Shown here piece after piece: positions 15,004 to 20,895 of a stretch of DNA of 35,130 bases. The stretch lies in the NCBI GenBank assembly GCA_012512925.1, contig JAAZDE010000113.1, positions 1-35,130 on the forward strand, read 5' to 3'. The notes below the pieces were generated by a model. It was given only the letters and a program-made list of their open reading frames with translations. It ran no database searches and was not told the DNA's origin. The stretch's first letter is position 1. Each line of letters begins with the position of its first letter. Made by a program: the position numbers and the translations under genes. The DNA comes from Desulfuromonadaceae bacterium. GTDB lineage: Bacteria > Desulfobacterota > Desulfuromonadia > Desulfuromonadales > JAAYDE01.

Positions 15004-15104
15004 GCTCGTGGCTCGTAGCTGGTAGCTGGTAGTTTGAGGCTATAATCTTTTACGAGCCACGAGCCACGAGCCACGAGCCACGAGCCACGAGCCACGAGCC
15101 ACGA
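15004..15104. repeat. Heptamer-repeat element A, inverted arms, before the hcpR-like gene
   Basis: The left arm is four heptamers of GCTSGTR (GCTCGTG, GCTCGTA, GCTGGTA, GCTGGTA; 15004-15031). An AT-rich core of about 20 bases follows and contains TATAAT at 15041-15046. The right arm is seven exact copies of ACGAGCC plus a partial ACGA (15052-15104), the complement of the left unit. The array ends 14 bases before the start codon of the regulator gene. Confidence 0.9.
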
Positions 15105-15118
15105 ATGGAGATTCGCTC

Positions 15119-15805
15119 ATGACCCTTGCCGAAACAATCGCCGCCATTCCCCTCTTTGAGGGCCTTTTCCCCCAACAGAACGAAACCTTGGCCCGCATCG
15201 CCCGGAAAATGACCTTTTGCAGGGAGGAACGGATTTTTTCCGAAGGGGATGACGGTCGGGGACTCCATGTGGTCGTCTCCGGCAGGGTGAAGATCTTCAA
15301 GCTGTCTCCCTCCGGCAAGGAGCAGATTCTCCACATTTTCGGCCCCGGAGATCCTTTCGGCGAGATCGCCCTCTTTTCCGGCCGAACCTATCCCGCCCAT
15401 GCCGAAGCCCACAGCGATTGCCAGGTGCTCTTTTTCCCTCGGCGGGAGTTCGCCGAGTGCATCGCGGCCGATCCGTCGCTGGCCATCAATATGTTGGCTG
15501 TCCTGTCCCAGCGGCTGCGGAAATTCGCCCAACTGATCGAGGATCTGTCCCTCAAGGAAGTGCCCGGTCGGCTGGCGGCCTATCTTTTGTTTCTGAGCCG
15601 CCGTGAAGGCGGCAGCGGCAAAGTGACGCTGGAGGTGACCAAGGGGCAGCTGGCCGGACTGCTTGGCACCATCCCCGAAACCCTTTCGCGGATTTTGGCC
15701 AAAATGAGCCGTCAGGGGCTGATCGAGGTCAACGGCGCCTGTATCGAACTGCGCCAGATCGAGGAGCTGGAATCCTTGGCACAGGGTGAGTCGCGGCTGG
15801 TTTGA
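15119..15805 (+). CDS. hcpR: Crp/Fnr-family regulator, HcpR-like
   Basis: 228 residues. The N-terminal half is a cyclic-nucleotide-binding-type beta-barrel (GDDGRGLHVVVSGRVKIFKL, then FGPGDPFGEIALFSG at about 74-88). A dimerisation helix follows at about 120-145. The C-terminal winged helix has recognition helix GTIPETLSRILAKM at about 181-194. Its E..SR pattern is like FNR and fits TTGA half-sites, which are exactly what the two flanking promoters carry. The FNR N-terminal cysteine cluster is missing, so it does not sense oxygen that way; HcpR proteins respond to nitric oxide and some bind haem. GGAG lies nine bases before the ATG. It sits between the two genes it probably controls. The family is certain; the HcpR role is strongly supported by context. 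Confidence 0.88.
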   Translation: MTLAETIAAIPLFEGLFPQQNETLARIARKMTFCREERIFSEGDDGRGLHVVVSGRVKIFKLSPSGKEQILHIFGPGDPFGEIALFSGRTYPAHAEAHSDCQVLFFPRREFAECIAADPSLAINMLAVLSQRLRKFAQLIEDLSLKEVPGRLAAYLLFLSRREGGSGKVTLEVTKGQLAGLLGTIPETLSRILAKMSRQGLIEVNGACIELRQIEELESLAQGESRLV

Positions 15806-15884: not shown

Positions 15885-17516
15885 TCAACCGAGGATGGCC
15901 TTCAGGTCGTCATCGGGGGTGCTGATCGGCATGATGTTGAAGTGTTCGACCAGATAGTTGAGCACCTTGGGGGTGACGAAGGCCGGGAGGGTCGGGCCGA
16001 GGCGGATGTTCTTCGTGTTGAGGAAGAGCAGGGAGAGAAGAATGGCCACCGCCTTTTGCTCGTACCAGGACAGAATCATCGATACCGGCAGTTCCTGCGG
16101 GTCGCAGTTGAAGGCCTTGGCCAGGGCGTCGACAATCATGATGGCCGAATAGGCGTCGTTGCACTGGCCTACGTCGATCAGCCGGGGAATGCCGTCGATA
16201 TCCCCCATATCCTTGTCGAAGAAGCGGAACTTGCCGCAGGCCAGGGTCAGCACGACGCAGTCCTTGGGAACCTTCTCGACGAATTCGGTGTAGTAGCTCC
16301 GTCCCGGTTTGGCGCCGTCACAGCCGCCGACCAGGAAAAAATGACGGATCTTGCCGGCCTTGACCAGCTCCACGATCTTCCCGGCGACGCCCAGTACGGC
16401 CTTATGGCCGAAACCGGTGGTGATCGTCTTGCCGGGGACGTCTTCGCTGAAGCCGGGGAGTTGAAGGGCCTTTTCGATGACCGGAGCGAAATTTCCTTCT
16501 TCCAGGTGGGTGATGCCGGGCCAGCCGACCAGGCCGGTGGTGAAAAGATTGTCCTTATAGGAATTTTGCGGTTTTTGCAGACAGTTGGTCGTCATCAGGA
16601 TGGCGCCGGGGAAGGCCGCGAATTCCTTGTGCTGGTTCTGCCAGGCGGTGCCGTAATGGCCGTAGAAGTGGGCGTATTTTTTCAGTCCCGGATAGCCATG
16701 GCAGGGGAGCATCTCGCCGTGGGTATATACGTAAATCCCCTTGCCTTCGCTTTGTTTGAGGATTTCCTCCAGATCCTTGAGGTCATGGCCGGAAACCAGA
16801 ATCGCCTTGCCTTTTTTAGCTCCCAGGGGGACGGGAGTGGGCACGGGATCGCCGTAGGTGGTGGTATTGGCTTCATCCAGCACCTTCATCGCTCGCAGGT
16901 TGGTTTCGCCGCAGCGGATGACGAGATAGATCAGGGCCTGCAGTGAAATGCCGGTGTTCAGGGTGGACATCATCCCTTCGTTGATGAAGTCGTAGATATG
17001 GGGATCCTCGAAACCGAGCAGGGCGGCATGGTGAGTATAGGCGGCGACCCCCTTGAGGCCGTAGATCAGCAGCTGCTTGAGGGACTCGATATCCTGGTCG
17101 AGATCGGGATCGGGGGCGATGCCGGCCAGTTTCTCCCCCTGCTCGATCATCGCCTGAAGGTCGGTGCCGGGCTGGTAATTGGCTTCGGGAAGGCGGAAGA
17201 TGTCGCGGCCGCCGGCGTGGCTTACGGCTTTTTTCAGCTCGTCCCGGATGCCGGCGCATTCCCTGATCAGATCGGCAAAGCGCTCGGGATCGAAATCGAC
17301 ATTGGTCAGCGTCGAGAAGAGCGCTTTGGCCATGAATCGGTTGGCTTTTTCGCAGTCGCAGCTGTTCCGGGTCGCTTCCACGGCGACCATGGAGAGCCCT
17401 TTGAGGGCATAGATCAACAGATCCTGCAGGGCCGCCGTTTCCGGCTGTTTGCCGCACACCCCGACCTGGGTGCAGCCCTGCCCCTGGGCCGTCTGCTCAC
17501 ACTGATAGCAAAACAT
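15885..17516 (-). CDS. hcp: Hybrid cluster protein, class I (hydroxylamine reductase/prismane protein)
   Basis: 543 residues. The N-terminal cysteine motif of class I Hcp from anaerobes is present (Cys3, Cys6, Cys15 and Cys21 in CYQCEQTAQGQGC and VGVCG) and holds a 4Fe-4S cluster. Hybrid-cluster ligand regions are visible further on: GHD (SGHDLKDL), THGEMLPCHGYPGL, TTNCLQKP, GGCDGAKPGRSYY, LACGKFRF, and DVGQCNDAYSA. Hcp reduces nitric oxide to nitrous oxide, and hydroxylamine in vitro, protecting against nitrosative stress. The ATG at 17516 follows AAAGGAGGAATTC. The promoter carries an HcpR-type site at the class II position. It is convergent with the regulator gene. The assignment is certain. 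Confidence 0.97.
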   Translation of the reverse strand: MFCYQCEQTAQGQGCTQVGVCGKQPETAALQDLLIYALKGLSMVAVEATRNSCDCEKANRFMAKALFSTLTNVDFDPERFADLIRECAGIRDELKKAVSHAGGRDIFRLPEANYQPGTDLQAMIEQGEKLAGIAPDPDLDQDIESLKQLLIYGLKGVAAYTHHAALLGFEDPHIYDFINEGMMSTLNTGISLQALIYLVIRCGETNLRAMKVLDEANTTTYGDPVPTPVPLGAKKGKAILVSGHDLKDLEEILKQSEGKGIYVYTHGEMLPCHGYPGLKKYAHFYGHYGTAWQNQHKEFAAFPGAILMTTNCLQKPQNSYKDNLFTTGLVGWPGITHLEEGNFAPVIEKALQLPGFSEDVPGKTITTGFGHKAVLGVAGKIVELVKAGKIRHFFLVGGCDGAKPGRSYYTEFVEKVPKDCVVLTLACGKFRFFDKDMGDIDGIPRLIDVGQCNDAYSAIMIVDALAKAFNCDPQELPVSMILSWYEQKAVAILLSLLFLNTKNIRLGPTLPAFVTPKVLNYLVEHFNIMPISTPDDDLKAILG

Positions 17517-17821: not shown

Positions 17822-18877
17822 TCAGAAGACGACCAGTGCCCCGAAGCCGCTGAACCCCGCCCCAAACCCCAGCAGGACTCCCTTTTCCCCGGAACGGGGT
17901 GAACCTTGTTGGAGAAGATTCTGCAAAGCGAACATCAGGGTCGGCGAAGACATGTTGCCGAAGCTGGTGAATATTCGGCGGGACCATTGCATGGCCGAGG
18001 TCGGAAGGGAGAGTTTTTTTTCGATGCGGTCCAGGATCGCCAGCCCGCCGGCATGAACCGCCCACCAGGCGATGTCTTCCGTCCCGAGGTGGTGGCGGGA
18101 AAGGAGGCGGGCGAGGATGGTGGTGATGACTTCCGTGCCGATAACCGGTACTTCCCGGCTCAGGACGTTTCGGAGGCGGCCGTCGCACTGGGTGCGATAA
18201 CGAAGTTTTTCACGGTATTCGGGAAATATTCCCGATTCGAAATCTACCAGTCTGGGGAAGGGGCTTTCCTGCCCGGCGGCAACCAAAAGCGCCGCGGAAG
18301 CGCCGTCCCCGAAGATGGCGTTACTGACGATGAGATCGGGCTCCGGTCCGAGATAAACGGTAGCGGAGCAGACCTCCACCGACACGCACAGTACCCGGGA
18401 GGCGGCTTGGCGCGCAAGCAGTCCGACTCCGCATTCGAGATTGGGGATCGCCCCGCCGCAGCCCATTCCCATGAGGTCGACGAATTTCAGCGACGATGAA
18501 AGGGAGAGGTCCTCCGCCAGATAGGAGGAGAGCCCAGGGCAAAGGTAGCCGGTGCAGGTATTGACGACGATGGCATCGACCTCCCCGGCCTCAACTCCGG
18601 CGGCCGCCAGCGCTTTGCGGGAAGCTTCCAGAGCGAGACGGCGCCCCTGTTTCAGAAAGCGTTCGGTCAGTTTTCCCTGAGACGTTTCGAAGGTTTCATC
18701 GATATGATCGACTGCCAAATAGCGTCCCTGGATAGGAGATTCCAGAAAAAGTTTGCGATAGAGGTCGCCGGTCTTCCCCTCCAGGGACAAACGCCTGTCG
18801 AGAACCTCATAGGCTTCCTTCTGAGTGAGATAGCAGGGTGGGTTGGCTGTGGCCAGACTTCGAATGACGGCGTGCAA
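17822..18877 (-). CDS. Type III polyketide synthase (chalcone-synthase family)
   Basis: 351 residues from a TTG start at 18877 with AAAGGA six bases upstream; no better start is present. The catalytic triad of the family is complete: Cys140 in GMGCGGAIPN, His275 in WAVHAGG (HPGG in plants), and Asn308 in SFGNMSSPT. FGDGASAAL (189-197) and the C-terminal GFGAGFSGFG loop (GFGPG in chalcone synthase) are also present. Such enzymes extend acyl-CoA or acyl starters with malonyl units to make pyrones, resorcinols or phloroglucinols; bacterial forms often use long fatty acyl chains. It is the last gene of a three-gene operon with a methyltransferase (16 bases upstream) and a U32 protein. The product is unknown; a phenolic lipid is the best guess. 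Confidence 0.93.
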   Translation of the reverse strand: MHAVIRSLATANPPCYLTQKEAYEVLDRRLSLEGKTGDLYRKLFLESPIQGRYLAVDHIDETFETSQGKLTERFLKQGRRLALEASRKALAAAGVEAGEVDAIVVNTCTGYLCPGLSSYLAEDLSLSSSLKFVDLMGMGCGGAIPNLECGVGLLARQAASRVLCVSVEVCSATVYLGPEPDLIVSNAIFGDGASAALLVAAGQESPFPRLVDFESGIFPEYREKLRYRTQCDGRLRNVLSREVPVIGTEVITTILARLLSRHHLGTEDIAWWAVHAGGLAILDRIEKKLSLPTSAMQWSRRIFTSFGNMSSPTLMFALQNLLQQGSPRSGEKGVLLGFGAGFSGFGALVVF

Positions 18878-18893
18878 GATAAATTCCTTTCCT

Positions 18894-19619
18894 TTATCCG
18901 CTGACGGGATCGGGGGAGAAGGAGACTTCCACCTCGAGACGCAGGCTTCCCTGGTTTATTATTTCAAAGTTCGATACTGCCGGATGATTTTCCAGGATCT
19001 CCGTCAGTTCCTTTGGTGTGAAACCTTTTCGTACCGAGGTCAGAACATCGTGGCGGACTCCGGGTTCGGTACCGAGAGTGTAGAGCCAGCAGGCCGCGTA
19101 GGTCGGCGGCCACCGCCGCAGATCACCGACAAAAAGAGGTCCTCTGAGACGGGGGGAGAGGAGGAAGAGGAGTCGATCGATCTCTTCCCGGCTCAGGTGG
19201 TGCAGAAATAGGGTGGCCAGGGCGCCGTCAAAGGATGATTGGCAGTTTTCGAGGAAGGTGAAGAGTTCCGTTTCGATGATCTCCACCGACAGATTTTTCG
19301 GGGCTGCCCATTTTGTCGCCAGATGTACGGCATGGCTGTTTTTCTCGAGGCAGGTGAATTTCACGGCATGATTGTTTCGCAGCGCCCAGTGGCACAAGGC
19401 GATGGGGATGTCGCAGGCCCCCGCTCCCAGATCGAGAATGGCGAGCGGTTCTCTCCCCTTGGTCACCGCGAGAAGGCGTCGCAGAAATCCTCGGGCGGCG
19501 GAGAGACTCCCGAAAAGACGGTTGGTGCGCCGAATGAAACGATAACTGGCTTCGGCCAGACCAACGTCGAATTCCTCTCCGTCCATCAATTCCGGAGTGC
19601 TGTCCCGCTGCTCAAGCAT
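18894..19619 (-). CDS. Class I SAM-dependent methyltransferase of the PKS operon
   Basis: 241 residues from the ATG at 19619, which overlaps the upstream U32 gene by eight bases (ATGCTTGA) and has AGGGAG upstream. The frame is open further upstream only because it runs through the U32 gene in another phase. The SAM-binding motif I is LDLGAGACDIP at 63-72. An acidic residue ends the second strand (FTCLEKN), and GALATLFLHHLSREE is the post-III region typical of methyltransferase-11/25 folds. Methyltransferases paired with type III synthases usually O- or C-methylate the aromatic product, as SrsB does for Streptomyces phenolic lipids. A GTEPGVRHD stretch resembles substrate-binding parts of such enzymes. 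The fold is certain; the substrate is inferred from the operon. Confidence 0.87.
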   Translation of the reverse strand: MLEQRDSTPELMDGEEFDVGLAEASYRFIRRTNRLFGSLSAARGFLRRLLAVTKGREPLAILDLGAGACDIPIALCHWALRNNHAVKFTCLEKNSHAVHLATKWAAPKNLSVEIIETELFTFLENCQSSFDGALATLFLHHLSREEIDRLLFLLSPRLRGPLFVGDLRRWPPTYAACWLYTLGTEPGVRHDVLTSVRKGFTPKELTEILENHPAVSNFEIINQGSLRLEVEVSFSPDPVSG

Positions 19620-20808
19620 TCCAGAGACTCCCTGAGGCCAGAGCATGCAGTCCGTTATCGAGATCGAGGAGCGACTCCCGAAGGTAGTCAGGCTTGATTT
19701 CCACGGCGTCCCGGGCGATTTCGGAACAGCGGCCGCAGGAGCGGCAGTTCCACCCGGCACAGGAGCCGTTGCGGAAACGATCGATAAAGTCGCCGGGAAT
19801 CCGGTCGGAATGAATGATGATCGGCTGATTCTGAAGCTGAAAAAGCATTCCCTGGCGGCGGGCCAGGTCGACGAGCGGCTTCAGGCGCCAGGGTAAGATG
19901 CTGCGGGGATGCAGAAAGTGGCGGAGGAGCCATCCCGGCTCTCTTTTCAGCGGCTGGCGAAATCCGTGGGACAGGAACAGATCAGCCAGATTGCCGGAGA
20001 AGCTCCGGTTCCCGTAGGCCTCAACCCGCTGCAGAAGATTTTCCGAAGGGATGCCCCGTTCCAGTAGCTTGAAGGAGGTGTAGCCGATTTTTTCATATTC
20101 CGGCAGGTCCTCAGGACGGATCCAGGCGGAGCGGACGAAGAGCATCGGTTCTTTAAGGCGCAGAAGGGTGCATTTCAGAAAACAGTAGTCGAGGTAAAGG
20201 TTGCGGGATCCGTCCGAAGCGTGGGAGAAGCCGTTTTGATGATAGGGCTGCATCGGGCAGTTGGGGAGACAAAGGTGGTTTGCGATCAACTGCAGTTCGC
20301 AGGAGACCGCTTCCCTGATCCGGGTGAGCCGCTTGAAATCCCGGTTGATGGAGAAACTTTCGAGGGTCAGGGCGTCCGCTCCCAGATCCTCCCAGAAGCG
20401 CGCCCTTTCCGGAGTATCGATCTGAGCATAGATTCCCGCTTTGACCTGGAATTGGGGGAAGCGGATTTTGATCAGTTCCAGAAGATAAGGGGTGGCAACG
20501 GTCACCCGTTCGACTCCTGCATTGTCGAGCCGGTTTAAGAAACCGCACAGGTTCCGCTGCCAACGTCCGTCCCATTCCCTGTTGCCGAGACAGGAACTGT
20601 TGAGGAGATAATTGAAGGCGATCCCGTATTTTTTGAGGTCGGCCACATACCGGCGCAGCTTTCGAAAGGACAGAGGGGTTCCCATGTAGCTCGGCCGCCC
20701 GCCGCCGACGAGGTCGGAAGGAAACTTGCCGTAGACCTCGTGAACATGATGTTCGGCCAGGCGGGGAATAAGTTTGGAATCAAAGTTGGCGGCGACACTG
20801 AGGAACAT
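19612..20808 (-). CDS. Peptidase-U32-family (UbiU/UbiV-like) Fe-S protein with extra C-terminal Cys cluster
   Basis: 398 residues with eleven cysteines. The N-terminal two thirds looks like the TIM-barrel of U32 proteins (VYGKFPSDLVGGGR, ADALTLESFSINRDF, ANHLCLPNCPMQPYHQNG). Cys180, Cys184, Cys209 and Cys213 are placed like the U32 cluster ligands. A second group, Cys350, 355, 358 and 361 (CAGWNCRSCGRC), lies near the C-terminus and suggests another iron-sulfur cluster. Known U32 members (UbiU/UbiV, RlhA, TrhP) catalyse oxygen-independent hydroxylation rather than proteolysis. It is the first gene of the operon with a methyltransferase and a type III polyketide synthase, so hydroxylation of the aromatic product is an attractive inference. 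The U32-like family call is good; the exact role is unproven. Confidence 0.8.
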   Translation of the reverse strand: MFLSVAANFDSKLIPRLAEHHVHEVYGKFPSDLVGGGRPSYMGTPLSFRKLRRYVADLKKYGIAFNYLLNSSCLGNREWDGRWQRNLCGFLNRLDNAGVERVTVATPYLLELIKIRFPQFQVKAGIYAQIDTPERARFWEDLGADALTLESFSINRDFKRLTRIREAVSCELQLIANHLCLPNCPMQPYHQNGFSHASDGSRNLYLDYCFLKCTLLRLKEPMLFVRSAWIRPEDLPEYEKIGYTSFKLLERGIPSENLLQRVEAYGNRSFSGNLADLFLSHGFRQPLKREPGWLLRHFLHPRSILPWRLKPLVDLARRQGMLFQLQNQPIIIHSDRIPGDFIDRFRNGSCAGWNCRSCGRCSEIARDAVEIKPDYLRESLLDLDNGLHALASGSLWNA

Positions 20809-20851: not shown

Positions 20852-20857
20852 ATTATA
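20852..20857 (-). promoter_or_regulatory. Candidate -10 box for the U32-methyltransferase-PKS operon
   Basis: A perfect TATAAT on the minus strand lies 44 bases before the U32 gene ATG, in the 87-bp gap after uvrD. No good -35 is seen at 17 bases, so an activator may be needed or transcription may simply continue from uvrD. Confidence 0.35.
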
Positions 20858-20895
20858 GCGGGCCGGGGGAGGTTTTGGGAAAAGGGAGGAGAAAA

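Follow-up and report, generated by a model that had tools for sequence, protein, structure and literature searches.

Operons that combine a methyltransferase (MT), an O2-type oxidase and a type III polyketide synthase (PKS) give rise to alkylresorcinols or quinones (PMC10896814, PMC9927152). For the MT-oxidoreductase-PKS operon of planctomycetes, which is compact like the cyanobacterial hidABC genes, the alkylresorcinol core was demonstrated by expression, while the flavin enzyme has no demonstrated reaction (PMC10896814). In srsABC of Streptomyces griseus and pkqABC of Mycobacterium and Streptomyces MNU77, PKS and MT are accompanied by a ring oxidase that is not a U32 protein, and the product of this type of cluster is a methylated alkylbenzoquinone that acts as an electron carrier in hypoxia (PMC9927152). 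Hydroxylation without O2 is carried out by the prephenate-dependent U32 oxidases (PMC11574389, PMC6599085), and those characterised are C-hydroxylases (PMC11574389). In the case of UbiU/UbiV, a heterodimer acting on a polyprenyl-phenol, a U32 [4Fe-4S] protein replaces the flavin hydroxylases of the UbiH family (PMC6747719). TrhP and RlhA perform prephenate-dependent hydroxylation of RNA. The tailoring of type III PKS products by hydroxylases has so far been treated as O2-dependent, and a full-text literature search, which did not cover subscription papers, returned nothing relevant on a link of U32 proteins with type III PKSs or resorcinol.

Here we analysed a 35,130-nucleotide stretch of Desulfuromonadaceae DNA (the window), in which genes for a U32-family Fe-S protein (398 aa; 19612..20808), a SAM-dependent MT (241 aa, ATG start; 18894..19619) and a type III PKS (351 aa; 17822..18877) follow one another on the minus strand. 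The sequence-only reading had described them as an operon with an 8-nt overlap between the U32 and MT genes and a 16-nt gap between MT and PKS, and coordinates, strand and spacing were confirmed. It had also proposed an srs-type cluster in which the U32 protein takes over from the monooxygenase; this is supported by the conserved linkage of the genes and by the presence of FAD hydroxylases in the U32 slot of other operons, while activity, oxygen donor and product are inferred. We consider it likely that the three genes form an oxygen-independent phenolic-lipid or quinone cassette, an anaerobic counterpart of the hid, srs and pkq systems, although its chemistry, oxygen donor and product are unproven. 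PKS and MT are homologous to those of the hid-like planctomycete operons we compared, and the combination with a ring oxidase that we propose corresponds to srsABC and pkqABC. No O2-using flavin oxidase is present in the window operon, the U32 Fe-S protein being found in place of the FAD oxidoreductase; furthermore, the gene order is U32-MT-PKS rather than MT-FAD-PKS, and the window PKS belongs to a separate clade. The individual parts are of known kinds; what appears to be new is the way they are combined, the U32 subfamily and the repeated exchange of enzymes.

The PKS is assigned to the type III family by both its triad and its CHS-like domains (PF02797, 4.4e-17; PF08392, 1.8e-15). The intact Cys-His-Asn triad noticed earlier was recovered on alignment with Pks18 as C140, H275 and N308 (numbering of P0003; codons at 18458-18460, 18053-18055 and 17954-17956, minus strand) and is invariant in A3. 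Among solved structures the PKS comes closest to Pks18 and Pks11, two synthases of long-chain pyrones. Alkylresorcinol and pyrone synthases differ in the residue that determines cyclisation, Trp281 in ArsB and Gly284 in ArsC. The SAM motif of the MT is equally intact, reading LDLGAG at residues 62-67 (19419-19436, minus strand). The protein gives a Methyltransf_25 match and is PRK06202-like, and we regard it as a divergent MT because its Pfam matches fall below the gathering cut-off. It is not of the UbiE type, and it aligns over its full length with the MTs of FAD-type (hid-like) operons at 25-32% identity (E down to 6e-19).

In a profile search the U32 protein narrowly passed the PF01136 cut-off (25.1 against 22.4 bits), a relative at locus L027 scoring 38 bits. 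AlphaFold predicts an eight-stranded barrel for the window protein (pLDDT 89.7), and the top match of this model in a fold search of the PDB is the U32 protein Mk0906 (5d88, E 5.5e-12; runner-up 4.7e-7), in agreement with the TIM-barrel fold of U32 proteins. The cluster cysteines attributed to the protein are indeed present as C180, C184, C209 and C213 (20170..20271, minus strand), in an unusual CX3CX24CX3C spacing; the usual spacing in U32 proteins, TrhP and RlhA included, is CX6CX15CX3C. C180, C184 and C213 are kept in 45/45 U32 relatives, as is C73 (codon 20590-20592, minus strand), and C209 in 44/45, and on this conservation and the TrhP alignment given below we propose the region as the [4Fe-4S] ligand site. 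The C-terminal part of the protein contains a further motif, CX4CX2CX2C (C350, C355, C358 and C361; 19726..19761, minus strand), each cysteine of which is kept in 41-45 of the 45 relatives and which is absent from the sequence-only reading; it might bind a second cluster specific to this subfamily.

Comparison of the subfamily with TrhP-like proteins by hhalign gave a probability of 98.5 and paired C180/C184 with TrhP C170/C177, the barrel and the first two cluster cysteines being homologous to those of TrhP and RlhA. In the same comparison Gln173 of the window protein is aligned with TrhP E162, such that the essential Glu ahead of the first cluster Cys (E161 in RlhA) is missing here. Position 173 is Q in 26 and E in 18 of the 45 relatives, with PKS-linked operons of both types. 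Among E. coli proteins, TrhP scored 21, RlhA 12 and UbiU 11 bits with the subfamily profile, which did not match UbiV. A U32 tree, which had been suggested as a check against a placement among true peptidases, positions the subfamily outside the peptidases and also outside UbiU/UbiV/RlhA/TrhP, separated by a very long branch. Judged from sequence alone, the window protein represents a new deep subfamily among the hydroxylase-type, Cys-bearing U32 proteins that is none of the four known ones. Because the branches are very long, its deep position is weakly supported and any finer placement is unsafe. Membership in UbiU/UbiV was ruled out by the profile scores and the tree, and the operon contains no paired U32 gene. 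Superfamily and fold are common to UbiU/UbiV and the window protein, but the latter is of another deep subfamily, is a single protein instead of a heterodimer, carries the extra C-terminal Cys motif and would act on a polyketide. Further, canonical U32 proteins are also encoded in the window genome, and no U32 relatives were found in viral contigs.

The U32-MT-PKS arrangement recurs across phyla, in numerous bacteria that are only distantly related and for the most part anaerobic, and is not due to chance. In 13 of 58 relatives the query matched a U32 protein at E <= 0.001, in eleven of them (besides G000) at 1e-97 or better, and the close relative G002 has the three genes in the window's order. 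Examination of gene neighbourhoods, the test that had been suggested for conserved linkage, revealed it in several phyla and in three architectures, the named scan yielding 74 loci. Architecture A, with the order U32>MT>PKS, accounts for 22 loci in Planctomycetota, Lentisphaerota, Kiritimatiellota, Desulfobacterota (Desulfobacteraceae, Desulfohalobiaceae), Muiribacteriota and others. Architecture B, found in Desulfuromonadales, comprises, in this order, genes for a YceI-like protein, the PKS, an MMPL exporter, a protein of ~210 aa, the U32 protein and a UbiE/MenG-type MT, and the UbiE-like partner in operons of this type passes the TIGR01934 cut-off (165.6 against 158.35). In architecture C (Geomonas, Geobacter, Citrifermentans), genes for a B12-radical-SAM protein and an unknown protein are followed by those for an MT, the U32 protein and the PKS, in that order. 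The U32 proteins of A, B and C all belong to the same subfamily, which thus serves more than one PKS lineage, as the window PKS shares only 27-36% identity with those of B and C. Within the window's phylum, a PKS is present in 9/9 genomes with a close U32 compared to 20/336 others (Fisher 5.8e-11).

The strongest support for replacement of a flavin hydroxylase by the U32 protein is a natural substitution, observed on searching for loci by PKS rather than by U32. In otherwise similar PKS operons, the U32 slot is occupied by a UbiH/UbiF-type FAD monooxygenase (PF01494). Locus L194, with the layout of G007, reads YceI-PKS-FAD_binding_3-UbiE (3e-49 for the FAD_binding_3 match), and L195, with the layout of G029, reads YceI-PKS-FAD_binding_3-MMPL (5.6e-54); in the G007 and G029 operons, this protein has 402 aa and is of the UbiH/UbiF hydroxylase type. 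At L202 a FAD_binding_3-UbiE fusion is encoded, as in G145, and in the hid-like PKS clades of Planctomycetota most sampled PKS loci read MT-FAD-PKS, an arrangement published as that of alkylresorcinol operons (PMC10896814). Among 117 PKS loci, U32 is present in 54, FAD in 29, neither in 34 and both in none; many of the U32 loci were fetched via U32, a bias that affects the U32/FAD ratio and, to a lesser extent, the mutual exclusion. The PKS tree requires at least 6 changes between U32 and FAD, and a single clade of U32-linked PKSs is rejected (AU p 1.07e-12), therefore partners have changed repeatedly. By analogy, this exchange can be seen as a repeat, in another pathway, of the exchange of UbiU/UbiV for UbiH/UbiI/UbiF (PMC6747719). 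Two PKS loci of the window clade (L229 and L230) are without U32 and have a 396-aa open reading frame upstream that has no Pfam match.

The same observations bear on two other ways to interpret the U32 gene. It could be an unrelated peptidase or neighbour of an ordinary alkylpyrone or alkylresorcinol cluster, as might be suggested by the Pfam name 'Peptidase family U32' and the low family score. We regard this as highly improbable, since it is already contradicted by the linkage, an operon with overlapping genes conserved in many phyla, as well as by the invariant cluster cysteines and the exact replacement by FAD hydroxylases; the peptidase assignment itself was ruled out by cluster cysteines, gene context and that replacement. 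Alternatively, the U32 protein could belong to the pathway without being a plain ring hydroxylase, catalysing for example the decarboxylative oxidation of a resorcylic acid or the conversion of quinol to quinone, or serving in Fe-S electron transfer. Such a role would fit the replacement of the catalytic Glu by Gln in proteins of the window type, the altered Cys spacing and the extra C-terminal motif, and the flavin enzymes that are replaced are likewise unproven as simple hydroxylases (PMC10896814). However, the enzymes replaced in L194, L195 and L202 are aromatic hydroxylases by type, like UbiH/UbiF, and characterised U32 oxidases perform C-hydroxylation (PMC11574389), and we judge such a role unlikely. 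For the hydroxylase function that we favour, caveats are that no enzyme of the subfamily has been assayed and that Gln173 replaces the essential Glu, and by analogy the single U32 protein would speak against it, given that the known quinone U32 hydroxylases are the UbiU/UbiV pair.

A further caveat is that some members of the subfamily exist without any PKS. The U32 proteins of Opitutaceae, Acidobacteria and Gemmatimonadota are solo, and co-occurrence in Planctomycetota is not significant (PKS in 3/7 close-U32 genomes against 76/239 others, p 0.68), no PKS match being found in 4/7 of these close-U32 genomes; the lack of association there results from a side clade of U32 that stands alone. Such solo members, together with genomes of Planctomycetota, Gemmatimonadota and Acidobacteria that have U32 but no PKS, would be expected if the subfamily had a general function, with RNA or a different aromatic compound as substrate, and linkage to a PKS were merely one use of it, or the U32 gene a passenger of horizontally moving sets. 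We find this quite improbable, because three diverged PKS lineages share the one U32 subfamily, the slot taken by U32 is that of a ring hydroxylase, and several solo members of Verrucomicrobia nest within PKS-linked clades. Moreover, in two Geothermobacter-like genomes with a solo U32, a PKS operon without a hydroxylase gene lies on another contig.

In order to describe how an anaerobic PKS pathway might proceed, we combined the predicted functions. The type III PKS would convert an acyl starter and malonyl-CoA to an alkylresorcinol-type (or pyrone-type) ring, which the U32 Fe-S protein, replacing a flavin monooxygenase, would hydroxylate without O2. By analogy with UbiU/UbiV, TrhP and RlhA, the oxygen would probably be donated by prephenate; the window genome encodes prephenate dehydratase (PF00800), from which we conclude only that it should be able to use prephenate. 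The MT would then methylate the hydroxylated ring, O- or C-methylation being undecided, and in architecture B the MMPL and YceI-like proteins could mediate export or placement in the envelope. Every catalytic step is inferred, as is the product, be it a resorcinol-derived quinone, a phenol or a pyrone. The UbiE/MenG-type MT, MMPL exporter and YceI-like lipid-binding protein of the relatives indicate a membrane-directed, quinone-like lipid.

With regard to oxygen, COX1 is present in 27/27 FAD-type genomes and missing from 6/24 U32-type genomes, that of the window included; the difference (p 0.0075) is without correction for kinship. In the window genome neither a PF00115 heme-copper oxidase nor a full-length PF01494 hydroxylase was found, while cytochrome bd is present and the organism may therefore meet O2. 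Heme-copper oxidases are encoded in 18/24 U32-type genomes; taken together with the cytochrome bd of the window genome, this means that not all producers are strict anaerobes. We put forward only tentatively, as a possibility short of probable, the wider hypothesis of a cross-phylum anaerobic polyketide-quinone system in Desulfobacterota, Planctomycetota, Lentisphaerota, Kiritimatiellota and others, in which a membrane quinone or redox lipid is made by a type III PKS together with O2-independent U32 hydroxylation of the ring and the U32 enzyme has been exchanged with the UbiH type several times along with oxic/anoxic shifts. If the assignment is correct, polyketide lipids join ubiquinone and RNA as targets of O2-independent U32 hydroxylation, a second pathway shows an exchange like that between UbiU/V and UbiH, and strict and facultative anaerobes may contain unsuspected quinone-like lipids. 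Direct testing is possible in the cultured hosts Geomonas edaphica, G. azotofigens, G. diazotrophica and Citrifermentans bremense.

Possible expression signals were also found at the window operon. Immediately upstream of the U32 gene lies a sigma-70-like promoter match, TTCCCA-18-TATAAT (20852..20881, minus strand; 10/12 consensus), which is weak because 0.9 such sites are expected by chance in the region. The PKS gene begins with a TTG codon at 18877, 16 nt from the MT stop codon, and this start is preceded by a AGGAAAGGA-like ribosome site.

Adjoining the operon in the window are genes for a hybrid-cluster protein (Hcp; 15885-17516) and a CRP/FNR regulator (15119-15805), and both likewise flank the operon in the close relative G002. 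An Hcp gene was also observed 5-9 kb away from the U32-PKS locus at five Geomonas/Geobacter/Citrifermentans loci. The proximity of Hcp and CRP/FNR genes to the U32-PKS operon may be a coincidence. A perfect tandem repeat with a 7-bp unit, (ACGAGCC)x7.6, at window positions 15052-15104 produces an RGSWLVA run in spurious reading frames.

Genomes G027 and G038 carry a solo U32 gene (L022 and L024), with a YceI-PKS-MMPL-UbiE operon lacking any hydroxylase gene on a different contig (L209 and L210); a phage-type integrase gene lies close to the solo gene of L022. In G329, G216 and G287, a divergent U32 with ~32% identity to the subfamily of the window protein sits within a conserved gene block (L219, L221 and L223), and each genome contains a distant type III PKS locus elsewhere, adjoined in G329 and G287 by a FAD gene. 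L229 and L230 (G503 and G415) encode a window-clade PKS, with no U32 in either stretch or genome. At both loci the PKS start is overlapped by a 396-aa ORF without a Pfam match, and UbiE-like and methyltransferase genes are divergent.

Other PKS loci feature different partners. A B12-binding radical-SAM protein (TIGR04072-like) is encoded directly upstream of the type III PKS at L231-L238, L197, L198, L201 and L208, hosted by Planctomycetota and Desulfobacterota. No hydroxylase gene lies near these pairs, which probably represent a further O2-free tailoring route. At L202:6575-8578 (G145), a FAD_binding_3 hydroxylase fused to a UbiE-type methyltransferase adjoins a type III PKS.

Two genes of a related U32 subfamily lie side by side at L226:8075-10450 (G199), L227 and L093 (G138) and L091:8204-11173, resembling the two-gene layout of UbiU/UbiV. 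These adjacent genes possibly constitute a second U32 pair, whose pathway is unknown. The L093 pair lies immediately downstream of LuxE- and LuxC-type acyl-CoA reductase genes, with no PKS in the neighbourhood of the locus. Finally, the window genome encodes an additional, distant U32-like protein of 374 aa and unknown function (L228; G000:C22:45496-45912), which shows 24-27% identity and is common to G002.
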